Source of the DNA: Oscillibacter sp. | GTDB lineage: Bacteria > Bacillota > Clostridia > Oscillospirales > Oscillospiraceae | DNA: 64,000 nucleotides | Reading direction: 5' to 3' | Assembly (NCBI GenBank): GCA_022652815.1 | Contig: JALCRR010000001.1 | Coordinates: forward strand, 1-64,000 | In this document: piece by piece, positions 31,331 through 50,885 of the stretch | How the letters are laid out: the number at the start of each line of letters is the position of its first letter | Position numbering within the stretch: position 1 is the first letter of the stretch | Position numbers and translations under genes: made by a program | The notes under the pieces: generated by a model | What the model was told of the DNA's origin: nothing | What the model saw: only the letters and a program-made list of their open reading frames with translations | Databases searched by the model: none

Positions 31331-32368
31331 TTAGGCCTCAGTGGATTCAATCGCCTTAGCGGCAATCTCGTCGGGAACGGTGATGTTCATGGCGGCTAGC
31401 GCCTCGGAATTCACATAGATGCCGTACTCGCTGATGGTTTCAAAGGGCGTGTCGTCGCAAGTGGTTGCGCCGGTGAGGATCTTCGCGGCCATAATGCCGG
31501 TCTGAATGCCCAGCTGATAGTAGTCAATGCCGGCGGCGGCCACGCAACCGATCTTGACCTGCTCGACTTCGGAGCCGTAGACGGGGATTCCGGCCTCATT
31601 GGTCTTTTCCAGAATAGAGGAGAGCACGCCCACCACGTTGTTGTCGGTTAAGTTGGACAGGCAGTCGACCTTGTCGGCGATCAGCTTGTCGGCGGCCTGG
31701 GTGACTTCGGACTGGGCGGTGACGCCGATCTCGTCAATGGTGAAGCCGTAGTCGCCGGCCTTCTCCTTATACTCGGCAATGGCGGAGACGGAGTTGGGCT
31801 CGGACGTGGTGTAGATGATGCCGATGGTCTTGGCGTCGGGCTGCATCTGGCGAATCAGATCCAGCTGTGCCTCCACCGGCAGCTTGTCGGAGGTGCCGGT
31901 GCAGTTGCCGGCGGTCAAGTTGGCGGCTTCGGGATCGGTGACGGCGGTGAAGATCACGGGAATGTTCTTATCCTCGGCTGCGGCGTAGCAGGCGATGGCG
32001 GAGGGCGTTGCGATGCCCACCATCAAATCGCAGTTCTCTGCGGAAAAGCTCTGGGCGATCTGGGTGTCGATGGAATCATCGAACTGTGCGTTCTGGTAAT
32101 CCAGCGTGATGTTGTCGGCGGTCAGCAGACCGGAGTCGGTCAAGCCCTGCAAAAAGCCCTCGCGGCAGTTGTCCAGAGAGGCGTGTTCGCCGTACTGGGC
32201 AAGGCCGATCGTATAGTGTGCGTCGGATGCGGCGCCGGAAGCGGCGGCAGATGCGCCGGCAGAAGCGGCGGAAGAAGCTGCGCCGGTGGAGCCGCAGGCG
32301 GCGAGGGAAGCGGTCATGGTCAGTGCCAGAGCGGCAGTCAGAAGCTTTTTAAAAGTGTTGTTTTTCAT
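31331..32368 (-). CDS. trpX-like: ABC transporter substrate-binding lipoprotein, probable tryptophan type (TrpX-like)
   Basis: Lipobox LAACG, YTIGLAQYGEHASLDNCREGFLQGL; preceded by a UGG T-box and a Trp-rich uORF. Confidence 0.87.
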   Translation of the reverse strand: MKNNTFKKLLTAALALTMTASLAACGSTGAASSAASAGASAAASGAASDAHYTIGLAQYGEHASLDNCREGFLQGLTDSGLLTADNITLDYQNAQFDDSIDTQIAQSFSAENCDLMVGIATPSAIACYAAAEDKNIPVIFTAVTDPEAANLTAGNCTGTSDKLPVEAQLDLIRQMQPDAKTIGIIYTTSEPNSVSAIAEYKEKAGDYGFTIDEIGVTAQSEVTQAADKLIADKVDCLSNLTDNNVVGVLSSILEKTNEAGIPVYGSEVEQVKIGCVAAAGIDYYQLGIQTGIMAAKILTGATTCDDTPFETISEYGIYVNSEALAAMNITVPDEIAAKAIESTEA

Positions 32369-32475
32369 AGTTGGGATTCCTTTCTAAAGTCCGTATGGAC
32401 GGATGATGTTGTGTTGTTGAATGTGTGAAAATCGAACCAGCACCATCGGCGCCATCGTTTTGTTAAAAGGTTCAT
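32365..32475 (-). CDS. Putative Trp-rich leader peptide MNLLTKRWRRWCWFDFHTFNNTTSSVHTDFRKESQL
   Basis: ATG at 32475 preceded by AAAAGGAGTTTTGAAC; Trp codons 8, 11 and 13; stop TGA overlaps the SBP start (ATGA). Not in the ORF track. Confidence 0.6.
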   Translation of the reverse strand: MNLLTKRWRRWCWFDFHTFNNTTSSVHTDFRKESQL

Positions 32476-32604
32476 GTTCAAAACTCCTTTTCAAGAGGTA
32501 AAAGCGTATTTGGGCAACGAAGCAGCGAAGCGGATTCCAGCCATAAAAATCGGTTGCCGCGCAGCGGCGAGATTTTTGGCCATTTAATTTTTTGTTGCAG
32601 GGCA

Positions 32605-32870
32605 ACAAAAAAAGCCCTATCCCAATATCATTGGGACAAGACTTCCATCCTGCGGTACCACCCAAGTTGACGCGATTGCGCCCGCTCGTTTCAGAGAACC
32701 AACATTCTCTGCCGCGCTGGTAACGGGTGCGGCTCCCGTCAGACACTACTTGCCCTGCGGCTTTCGTTCTGCCCTCACAAGTCCATTCACCGGAAAGTCC
32801 TCTGCCGTGATCCCACCATCCACAGCTCTCTGAAAGGTTGCCCAACCGGATACTACTCTTGCTCAGCGGT
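32605..32870 (-). promoter_or_regulatory. T-box leader (tryptophan, specifier UGG)
   Basis: Minus strand has GAGTAGTA, CAGAGAGC, GTGAA-TGG-AC (specifier at 32783-32785), GGGTGGTACCGCAGG antiterminator and terminator AGTCTTGTCCCAAT-gat-ATTGGGATAGGGCTTTTTTT. Confidence 0.92.
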
Positions 32871-32892
32871 TTGTTTTGTTTGATTGTTTTGC

Positions 32893-32921
32893 ATTATATG
32901 CGCCCAGAGATTGGAAGTCAA
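32893..32921 (-). promoter_or_regulatory. Sigma-A promoter of the Trp T-box operon
   Basis: TTGACT-N17-TATAAT on the minus strand. Confidence 0.8.
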
Positions 32922-33044: not shown

Positions 33045-33839
33045 TCAAGACAGCAGGACGGAATCGGTTTCTTCCTGCACACCGGCAACCTCGGCAAACT
33101 TTTGCAGCAGGTCGGCCTTGGTGAGCTTCTTTTTCTCCTCACCCTCGATGTCCAGAATGATGCGTCCCTCGTTCATCATGATGATGCGGTTGCCGTGGGC
33201 AATCGCGTCTTTCATGTTGTGGGTAATCATCATGGCGGTGAGGCCGTTTTCCTGCACGATGGTGTCGGACAGCTCCAGCACCTTGGCGGCAGTGGCGGGG
33301 TCCAGTGCGGCGGTGTGCTCGTCCAGAAGCAGAAGCTTCGGCTTTTGCAGCGCCGCCATTAAAAGCGTCAGCGCTTGACGCTGACCGCCGGAGAGCAGAC
33401 CGACCTTGCTGGTCATGCGATCCTCAAGCCCCAGACCCAGCGTCTTGAGCTTCTCGCGGTAGAGCGTGCGCTCCGCCTTGGTGACGCCCCAGCCCAGACC
33501 CCGCTTTTTGCCGCGGCGATAGGCCAGTGCCAGATTTTCCTCGATCTGCATATTGGGCGCAGTACCCATCATGGGGTCTTGAAACACGCGGCCGATGAGC
33601 CGTGCCCGCTGATATTCGGCGAGGCCGGTCACATCCTCGCCGTCGATGACGATGGAGCCGCTGTCTACCGGCCACACGCCGGCAACCGCATTGAGCATGG
33701 TGGATTTGCCGGCGCCGTTGCCACCGATCACGGTAACAAAATCGCCCTCCTTCAAGTGCAGATTCAGATTGACGAGGGCTTTCTTTTCGTTGATGGTGCC
33801 GGGGTTGAACGTCTTGGAGACGTGATTGATGTCAAGCAT
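33045..33839 (-). CDS. ABC transporter ATP-binding protein (TrpXYZ-type operon 2)
   Basis: IGGNGAGKSTMLNAVAG, LSGGQRQALTLLMA, LLLDEHTAALDPATA. Confidence 0.92.
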   Translation of the reverse strand: MLDINHVSKTFNPGTINEKKALVNLNLHLKEGDFVTVIGGNGAGKSTMLNAVAGVWPVDSGSIVIDGEDVTGLAEYQRARLIGRVFQDPMMGTAPNMQIEENLALAYRRGKKRGLGWGVTKAERTLYREKLKTLGLGLEDRMTSKVGLLSGGQRQALTLLMAALQKPKLLLLDEHTAALDPATAAKVLELSDTIVQENGLTAMMITHNMKDAIAHGNRIIMMNEGRIILDIEGEEKKKLTKADLLQKFAEVAGVQEETDSVLLS

Positions 33840-34809
33840 GAGTGGTTCCCTCCTCTTTCAGCGCAGCTTTTCCGGCTTGGCGGAAGGAGCTTTTGGCCTG
33901 CTTTTGCAGATACGGAACGGCCAGGAAAACGGCAACCACTGCGGCGGTGAAGAGCTTCAAATCGTTGGAGGGCAGCCGCAGCCACAGCACCACGCCCACG
34001 ACGACGTAGTACACGATGCCACCGATGACCAAGAAGATCAGACGGGTGGAGAAGCTGGAGCCCTTTCGGAAGAATGCGTCGCACAGCGTCTCGCCGATGA
34101 TGACGGCGGCGAGGCCGATGACGATGGAGCCGCGGCCCATGTTGATGTCGGAAAATCCTTGATACTGGGCCATCAGACCGCCGGAGAGCGCCACCAGGGC
34201 GTTGGAAATGGCAAGGCCTAATACTTTCATGGAGTTGATGTTGATACCCTGCGCCCGGGACATGGCGGGGTTGGAGCCGGTGGCGCGGATGGCGGAGCCT
34301 TGCTCCGTGCCGAAGTACCAGTACAAAACGGCAATGATGACCGCTGCAGCCACAGCGCCCACGATGATGGCCTTGGGCACATGGCGCAGGGAAATCAGCA
34401 GCGCGTACTGATCCGGATTCACGGACTTGTTGGCGGCGCCCTTCCAGCCGCCCATGATGTGCAGGTTGACGGAGTACAGGGCGAACTGGGTCAGAATGCC
34501 GGCCAGAATGGCCGGAATGCCCAGCTTGGTGTGCAGCAGACCGGTGACAAGACCGGCCAGCAGTCCGGCGACGATGGCAACCAACAGCGCTGCCCATGCG
34601 GGGCAGCCCATCAAAATCAGCGTGACGGTGACCGCACCGCCGGTGGTGAAGGAACCGTCCACCGTCAGATCGGCGATGTCCAAAAGTCGGAAGGTAATGT
34701 AAACGCCCAGAGCCATCAGGCCCCAGACAATGCCCTGCGCCACGCTGCCGGGAATCCCTTTAATTAGGTTGGCCGGATTCAGTGACGCGAAATATGCGGC
34801 AATACTCAT
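33832..34809 (-). CDS. ABC transporter permease (TrpXYZ-type operon 2)
   Basis: AQGIVWGLMALGVYITFRLLDIADLTVDGSFTTGGAV; paralogue of 30358..31242. Confidence 0.9.
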   Translation of the reverse strand: MSIAAYFASLNPANLIKGIPGSVAQGIVWGLMALGVYITFRLLDIADLTVDGSFTTGGAVTVTLILMGCPAWAALLVAIVAGLLAGLVTGLLHTKLGIPAILAGILTQFALYSVNLHIMGGWKGAANKSVNPDQYALLISLRHVPKAIIVGAVAAAVIIAVLYWYFGTEQGSAIRATGSNPAMSRAQGININSMKVLGLAISNALVALSGGLMAQYQGFSDINMGRGSIVIGLAAVIIGETLCDAFFRKGSSFSTRLIFLVIGGIVYYVVVGVVLWLRLPSNDLKLFTAAVVAVFLAVPYLQKQAKSSFRQAGKAALKEEGTTHA

Positions 34810-34957
34810 GGTGTCCTCTCCTTTTGCGTTGTTTCTTCGGTCGGGGACAGGGGAACGGGTCTCGGAACCCCGTTCCCCCAACCCCGAAGGGCTGGGGATA
34901 ATCAGCAGGGGAAACGCCGTCCGAGCGGCGTTCCCCCTACATAATTACAAGGGAAGC

Positions 34958-35965
34958 TTAGGCGGCAATGGCCACATAGTCGCTGGGAGGCGTGATGCCC
35001 AGAGCGGCGCAGATGGTCTCGTTGTACTCCTTGGTGAACTGGGGAGCAAACTGAATGTCCATCGTGGCGGGGTCAGCGCCGTTCACCAGAATCTCGTATG
35101 CCATCTCGCCGGTGGCATAGCCCAGATCATAGTAGCTGATAGAGAGAGTCGCCACGCCGCAGCCGGAGCAGATGCCTTCCTCACCGGCAACAATGGGGAT
35201 GCCGGCGGGCTGGGCAACGTTGTTGATGGCCTCGGCGCAGGAGGCGGCGGTGTTGTCAGTGGGGATGTACAGCACTTCGTTTTCGCCGCAGGCGGTGGTG
35301 GTGACGGCGGCAACGTCGTTGGAGTCAGAGAACGCATAGGCGGTCACGGTGTAGCCCGCATCCTCCAGGAACGGAGTGATGGTCTCCACTTGATAGGCGG
35401 AGTTGGCCTCGGCGGAGCAGTACAGAATGCCCACGGTCTTGGCGTCGGGGAACAGCTCCTTGATCATGCTGGCCTGACCGTCCAGGGGAGCAAGGTCAGA
35501 GGTGCCGGAGATGTTGGTGCCGGTGGCGCCGGTCCAGCCGGAGATGCTCAGCGCGGAGCCGTAATCGGTGACGGAGGTGCCCAGAATGGGGGTTTCGCTG
35601 GTGGCGGCGGCAGCGGCTTGCAGGGCGGGTGTTGCGTTGGCCATAATTAGGTCGTCTCCACTGGAGACGAAGCCGTTGCAGATGGTGGCGCAGGTGGCGG
35701 AATCGCCGGCAGCGTTCTGCTCGTCAAAGGTCACGCTGTCACCCAGCTTTTTGGTCAGAGCGTCCTTAAAGCCCTGGGTTGCGGCGTCCAGAGCCGGATG
35801 CTGAACCAGCTGGCAGATGCCGACGGTGTAGCTTTCGCCGGAAGCGGCTGCGCTGGCGGAGGCGGATGCGCCGGCAGATGCGGCGGGAGCGGAGCTGGAG
35901 CCGCAGGCTGCCAGACTCAGAGCCATACAGGCTGCCAGAAGGGTTGCAAGAATCTTCTTTTTCAT
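34958..35965 (-). CDS. ABC transporter substrate-binding lipoprotein (operon 2)
   Basis: Lipobox LAACGSSSAP, YTVGICQLVQHPALDAATQGFKDAL; ABC_sub_bind-type. Confidence 0.9.
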   Translation of the reverse strand: MKKKILATLLAACMALSLAACGSSSAPAASAGASASASAAASGESYTVGICQLVQHPALDAATQGFKDALTKKLGDSVTFDEQNAAGDSATCATICNGFVSSGDDLIMANATPALQAAAAATSETPILGTSVTDYGSALSISGWTGATGTNISGTSDLAPLDGQASMIKELFPDAKTVGILYCSAEANSAYQVETITPFLEDAGYTVTAYAFSDSNDVAAVTTTACGENEVLYIPTDNTAASCAEAINNVAQPAGIPIVAGEEGICSGCGVATLSISYYDLGYATGEMAYEILVNGADPATMDIQFAPQFTKEYNETICAALGITPPSDYVAIAA

Positions 35966-36076: not shown

Positions 36077-36193
36077 TCATTCAGCCAGCCCTGTGCATTT
36101 CCCGTTCAAGGTACGGTAATAACGGCCCGCAAAGCGGACCTGCATAAAGGCGTAATAGGAGGACAGCCCATGAACGATCTGATTCTTTGCCAT
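36077..36193 (-). CDS. Putative 38-aa leader peptide MAKNQIVHGLSSYYAFMQVRFAGRYYRTLNGKCTGLAE
   Basis: ATG preceded by AAGGAGGAACACATC; YY pairs at 13-14 and 25-26; followed 30 nt later by the intrinsic terminator. Confidence 0.6.
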   Translation of the reverse strand: MAKNQIVHGLSSYYAFMQVRFAGRYYRTLNGKCTGLAE

Positions 36194-50594: not shown

Positions 50595-50885
50595 GGATTC
50601 CCGGCAACCCCAGAGAAACAAAAAGACTTCCGCCGCTCCTGTTCCTCAGGAGAGACGAAAGCCGGACTTCCGTGGTACCACTCTCATTGCCGCGAAAATA
50701 CGGCCACTCGTGTGCCGGCTGTATCGGGCGGCTCCCGGTCCGGCCTACTAAAAGGAAAATCCCTTTTTCGGCGGACTGCTCCCGGGCCAGCTCCTGTGGA
50801 CCAATTCTGCCGCCTTGCACCGTCCGGCGGCTCTCTGAAAGAATCTGCTTCCACGGATTTCCCGTTCATCGCATGAACAAGTATT
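50595..50885 (-). promoter_or_regulatory. T-box leader of ilvE (probable Leu, CUG specifier)
   Basis: Minus strand CAGAGAGCC, GAGAGTGGTACCACGGAAG, terminator CTTTCGTCTCTCCTG-aggaa-CAGGAGCGGCGGAAGTCTTTTT; candidate specifier GAG-CTG-G at 50788-50790. Confidence 0.88.

Follow-up and report, generated by a model that had tools for sequence, protein, structure and literature searches.

A short open reading frame (ORF) between a tryptophan T-box riboswitch and a TrpX-like ABC transporter operon of Oscillibacter sp. is a conserved leader, in which the supply of charged tRNA-Trp would probably be tested a second time, downstream of the T-box, at a CGA-UGG codon pair. This reading is drawn from sequence comparison, in which the element that is conserved is the putative decision point at the CGA-UGG pair itself. 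The locus was studied in a stretch of 64,000 nucleotides (contig JALCRR010000001.1), hereafter the window; elsewhere in Clostridia, trpX-, trpB-, and trpB2-like genes repeatedly have the same arrangement directly before them.

Anatomy of the Locus

All features of the locus lie on the minus strand. A TTGACT-N17-TATAAT promoter (32893..32921, 11 of the 12 consensus bases matching) precedes a T-box riboswitch (32629..32875), which scores 104.2 bits against an RF00230 gathering threshold of 93 (E = 6e-22) and has both an antiterminator with its UGGN, GGGTGGTACCGCAGG, and an intrinsic terminator found by terminator scan (32610..32646). Read from the sequence, the Stem I specifier is UGG (32785-32783, in the context GUGAA-UGG-AC); GAA-UGG-A is likewise found in relatives, and a UGG T-box precedes the orthologous substrate-binding protein (SBP) gene in most of them.

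Behind the terminator come a Shine-Dalgarno (SD) sequence, AAAAGGAG (32484..32491), and the 36-codon leader ORF (32365..32475, from the ATG at 32475 to the end of the TGA stop at 32365), recognized from its sequence and from family conservation. Its product, MNLLTKRWRRWCWFDFHTFNNTTSSVHTDFRKESQL, has Trp at codons 8, 11 and 13. The near-invariant CGA-TGG pair (Arg7-Trp8, 32452..32457), which we propose as the decision point, is followed in this leader by a second CGA-TGG (32448-32443). The TGA shares bases with the ATG of the SBP gene, whose own SD sits within the final leader codons. A first-pass annotation of this DNA had described the promoter, the UGG T-box, the terminator, the SD, the ORF with its three Trp codons, and the TGA/ATG overlap; all these sequence statements are correct, and the two stacked Trp-related elements that it recognized, T-box and Trp-codon ORF, are both present.

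The operon encodes a lipoprotein SBP (PF04392, 31331..32368), an ABC permease (PF02653, 30358..31242), and an ABC ATPase (PF00005, 29592..30365). Its earlier designation as a Trp-type transporter is sustained by the PF04392 match of the SBP (223.7 bits) and not by the NCBIfam TrpX model NF041285, whose cut-off the SBP misses (240.5 bits vs 390); we therefore call the SBP TrpX-like. A paralogous transporter operon adjoins just upstream (33045-35965).

Compared with relatives, the window has about 90 additional bases between the T-box terminator and the leader (32510-32600, minus strand). They hold an imperfect inverted repeat, GGCCAAAAATC...GATTTTTATGGC, present in one copy in the window, and the segment is possibly a small insertion.

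Conservation of the Leader

Among the 15 T-boxes of the window's own genome, that of the window is the only one with such an ORF behind it. For the others, the gene mostly lies some 60-90 nt past the T-box end, and the leader is absent from the other UGG T-box, located before a TrpB2-like gene (locus L010). DNA similarity with genomes of the same genus ends near the terminator, and the same-genus intervals between T-box and orthologous SBP gene that were printed bear a short SD-led ORF (MKLYTKRWRRWRG, MILFTKRWRLCRR, MKRDTRRWRGQRA, and others).

A motif-blind search, which used only SBP homology and accepted every ATG ORF that had an SD and a TGG near its start, was positive for 60 of 90 T-box-to-SBP intervals. 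In these 60 leaders, Trp is preceded by CGA in 55, is codon 8 in 44, and is followed by a CGN codon in 52 (CGG 22, CGA 15, CGC 8, CGT 7), the use of all four wobble bases indicating coding. The reverse test started from the hexamer CGATGG, which is found in 57 of 87 T-box-to-SBP intervals; 200 dinucleotide shuffles gave 4.0 and never more than 10. At all 56 loci having an SD-led ATG just upstream, the hexamer is in open frame with this ATG (Trp being codon 8 in 45 of the 56), and SD-ATG candidates are distributed 62:4:3 among the three frames relative to CGATGG. From these frame and count tests, whose loci come from related genomes and are not independent events, we conclude that the sequence is translated and under codon-level constraint. 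A chance ORF was ruled out by leader conservation across relatives together with the shuffle test.

The codon preceding Trp is CGA in 54 of 58 trpX leaders, that is, in all 54 that have Arg there, the remaining four having Gly or Asp codons. At the same loci, CGA represents 4.7% of host Arg codons, and it accounts for 9 of the 91 Arg codons that precede TGG in ordinary ORFs. Such a codon-level constraint is not needed by ordinary attenuation. Across Clostridia, the shared form is an SD-led M-x5-R-W-R, in which Trp mostly occupies codon 8. Tandem or multiple Trp codons, of which the annotation had noted three, are not what is conserved, the conserved unit being a single CGA-UGG at codons 7-8. 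The annotation had named lost conservation in relatives as what would refute it, and this outcome did not occur: genomes far beyond the genus retain a small Trp-codon ORF, in a form other than the proposed one, since neither its length of 36 codons, nor Trp at codons 11 and 13, nor the overlap of stop and start is conserved.

Could the constraint bear on something other than a Trp codon read by a ribosome? CGAUGGYG might be an RNA or protein binding motif whose location in an ORF is fortuitous, as CGA is fixed at the nucleotide level in codon 7 and as the bases following UGG are C or U and then G, even where they encode Cys or a stop. We consider this quite unlikely, given that the hexamer keeps to the frame of the SD-led ATG, that Trp falls at codon 8, and that the wobble base of the next codon is free. 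The recurrent M-[FK]-x-L-T-[KR]-R-W-R might also suggest that the product itself is functional, perhaps as a small cationic micropeptide, but the C-terminus is unconstrained in both sequence and length, Trp8 is the last residue of several peptides, and peptide function requires no invariant rare codon, so that this explanation appears extremely improbable.

About a third of the T-box/SBP intervals, including those of Coprococcus and Dorea, lack the motif, and these leaderless intervals are shorter (median 99 vs 144 bases). The leader is therefore not essential to T-box control. Two leaderless intervals (L136 and L143) bear CCACCATCGA, the reverse complement of TCGATGGTGG, possibly by coincidence. 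At three loci (L118, L064, and L071), the RWR leader occurs twice in tandem between the T-box and the SBP gene, and both copies have an SD of their own; in two genomes with tandem leaders, the distance from W to the next ATG is 71-78 nt (78 and 71), resembling the usual W-to-SBP spacing. Finally, locus L032 has about 570 added bases between the T-box terminator and the leader, possibly with a gene fragment inside, and its SBP-adjacent leader is intact.

Genes and Taxa Behind the Leader

Searches for a T-box followed by the motif covered Clostridia and the window's order. They yielded leaders (such as MFILTKRWRKVK, MVILTKRWRNLK, MFLPGRRWRLFS, and MFILAVRW) ahead of trpB (identified with TIGR00263, 507 bits), trpB2-like (loci L189 and L194), and trpX-like genes. 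Most of the T-boxes preceding these leaders show a UGG specifier by a simple pattern, and a minority, mainly located before trpB, has no visible one. Leader carriers span many families, and a draw of 150 genomes from the phylum produced one carrier placed outside class Clostridia (L246). No clear non-Trp target was found among the leader loci, one of which (L209) has a gene without family assignment, and the T-box-plus-motif hits ahead of valS- or ileS-like genes have no leader inside. Given this recurrence in Clostridia, many gut bacteria may sense tRNA-Trp twice.

Tissierella provides a variant with GWW (MDSGWWRFS and MDNGWWCYR), and its GWWR form (L144 and L153) resembles E. coli trpL.

Leader Stop and RNA Structure

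The annotation had proposed that ribosomes finishing the ORF cover the SD of the SBP gene, which would stay accessible when they stall at the Trp codons. This agrees with the position of the stop and of the SBP SD in the window, and rtpLP of B. subtilis is a precedent. Across the family, however, the leader stop overlaps the SBP ATG (gap ≤0) at just 6 of 58 loci, lies more than 20 nt upstream at 51, and lies more than 35 nt upstream at 34. Gaps between the stop and the SBP gene vary widely (mean 43, sd 25), and the distance from the Trp codon to the SBP ATG is tighter (80, sd 13): constraint falls on the Trp codon and its neighbors, not on the stop. A conserved stop/start overlap was rejected on these counts. 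Because the stop is scattered, occlusion of the SD by a terminating ribosome is unlikely as a shared mechanism and lacks support as the general one. Moreover, ATGA overlaps serve positive coupling too, and that of the window could equally represent translational coupling, with an effect opposite in sign to occlusion.

A ribosome stalled in the leader might instead shift downstream pairing and thereby control a terminator or release the SD, trpL and erm being general precedents. The window has a terminator-like hairpin of seven pairs (32454-32438) that begins at the Trp8 codon and has a weak U tract, but its conservation in relatives is not apparent by eye. The segment between the Trp codon and the SBP start is no more structured than shuffles (mean folding z +0.2, 57 loci), with no excess of hairpins past the leader codons, as in a classical trp attenuator, or of hairpins sequestering the gene SD, as in erm-type control. 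The SBP SD has a mean unpaired fraction of about one half, and no terminator was seen after the leader in the printed intervals, several of which are too AT-rich and short to hold one. With a scattered stop and null folding, a terminator or SD-hairpin switch thus loses support and seems highly improbable; SD sequestration or a terminator between leader and gene was rejected on the null folding z-scores.

The leader could also chiefly recruit ribosomes, or couple translation to the gene, regardless of Trp supply. Its strong SDs, the stop/start overlap in the window and a few relatives, and the many leader stops lying within about 50 nt of the gene agree with such a role, which nevertheless leaves unexplained the Trp codon, the invariance of CGA, and the restriction to Trp genes and Trp T-boxes, and which we therefore regard as very unlikely. 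Two other candidates were set aside: a programmed frameshift into the SBP gene, the stops in alternative frames being scattered, and pairing of UGGC with the GCCA 3' end of tRNA, for which further support was absent.

Trp-Free Operons and a Proposed Mechanism

The SBP, permease, and ATPase of the window are each devoid of Trp, with none in 896 aa where about 6.6 would be expected from the frequency of Trp in the window's long ORFs (0.74%). Likewise, not one of 57 SBPs or of 14 TrpBs contains Trp; the neighboring paralogous operon has 8. The leader is therefore the sole carrier of the operon's translated Trp codons. This Trp-free operon, like the CGA constraint, the fixed codon-8 position, and the trpB and trpB2 cases, was absent from the annotation.

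Under the reading that we favor, a second test of charged tRNA-Trp, the Trp T-box would release the mRNA first, and the leader would then probe the supply of charged tRNA-Trp again. A ribosome initiating at the leader SD would make about seven residues, after which CGA would occupy the P site and UGG the A site. When Trp-tRNA is scarce, we infer that the ribosome would pause at this pair; when Trp-tRNA is plentiful, it would pass and terminate at a stop codon without fixed position. The downstream genes would remain translatable under Trp starvation because they contain no Trp codons. The presence of CGA in the P site may sharpen the pause at UGG. In the his leader of Salmonella, CGA behaves as a slow codon (PMC4046918), but in B. 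subtilis a lacZ reporter was not slowed by CGA repeats (PMC10454642), so that a kinetic role of CGA is only tentative in this phylum.

As an output, the paused ribosome near the 5' end could shield the mRNA against decay from that end, a role that has been suggested for erm leaders; for ErmBL, mRNA stability is separable from stalling (PMC5118997). Taken on its own, 5'-end protection is the most likely output step, which we put forward tentatively and at less than even chances; it is favored because what is conserved calls for no RNA switch and is compatible with leader ends that vary. Local occlusion or coupling could come on top of this in the window itself, through its stop/start overlap. 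More generally, these leaders might form a Clostridia class in which a fixed pair (a slow CGA in the P site and a hungry UGG in the A site, with a seven-residue chain) reports the level of charged tRNA-Trp sharply and acts without a structural switch in the RNA, for instance as a roadblock to mRNA decay, on Trp-free operons that already have a T-box; we hold this as a possibility of similarly limited confidence. The near-invariant CGA before UGG makes testable the question of whether a neighboring rare codon tunes the sharpness of ribosomal aminoacyl-tRNA sensing.

Relation to Known Systems

To our knowledge, a T-box combined with a Trp leader peptide is known solely from the Bacillus rtpA operon. 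The B. subtilis rtpA (anti-TRAP) operon reportedly associates a Trp T-box with the rtpLP leader peptide, in work said to be that of Chen and Yanofsky in 2003 and 2004, and the rtpA target is a TRAP antagonist. The parallel drawn by the annotation stands, as a short SD-led ORF with one or more Trp codons is found between a Trp T-box with its terminator and the regulated gene, and the Clostridia arrangement would similarly sense charged tRNA-Trp twice. PMC11255114 cites Chen and Yanofsky for the B. subtilis rtpA arrangement, in which a leader with Trp codons stands behind a Trp T-box. Unlike that of rtpA, the Clostridia leader usually has a single Trp codon, placed eighth and preceded by CGA, and the genes are trpX or trpB. 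Also, in contrast to rtpLP, its stop position is not conserved and the occlusion geometry is rare, the stop being placed so that a terminating ribosome would cover the downstream SD in the window and not in the family.

A second likeness concerns the T-box. In Streptococcus suis, when Trp is limiting, a Trp-specifier T-box controls trpXYZ, which like the window operon encodes an ABC transporter of TrpX type (PMC9382623); unlike in the window, a leader peptide is unmentioned in PMC9382623 as far as a term search of that source goes. The leader also recalls trp attenuators (E. coli trpL and the trp leaders of Corynebacterium and Streptomyces, PMC1262725), in which a Trp-codon leader ORF likewise precedes Trp genes, but it has no terminator or antiterminator behind it, termination being performed by the upstream T-box. 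With erm leaders it shares its shortness and a ribosome stall near the 5' end (here proposed), linked in erm to mRNA stability (PMC5118997). Unlike erm, neither drug-dependent nascent-chain arrest nor an SD-sequestering hairpin was seen here.

We thus regard the Clostridia leader as a real, widely conserved variant of T-box plus leader-peptide control, to which the annotation's occlusion model is partly applicable. No published description of it was found in the open-licence literature, where novelty is provisional; the annotation had similarly known of none for a TrpXYZ-type transporter, and none was found there.

Other Elements in the Window

A second T-box of the window (50648-50878, minus strand; RF00230, 101 bits) is located upstream of a branched-chain aminotransferase-like gene. 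Upstream of the paralogous SBP operon, an SD-led ORF with Tyr codons, MAKNQIVHGLSSYYAFMQVRFAGRYYRTLNGKCTGLAE (36077-36193, minus strand), is followed by an intrinsic terminator at about 36047-36013. Related ORFs in some same-genus relatives have Tyr/Phe codons ahead of a VRxAGR segment, and the window DNA at this segment could pair as a hairpin, GGUCCGC-UUU-GCGGGCC. Judged from its letters, this ORF and its terminator look like a Tyr/Phe ribosome-mediated attenuator. The SBP of the paralogous operon belongs to the same family as a solved SBP, PDB 6hni.
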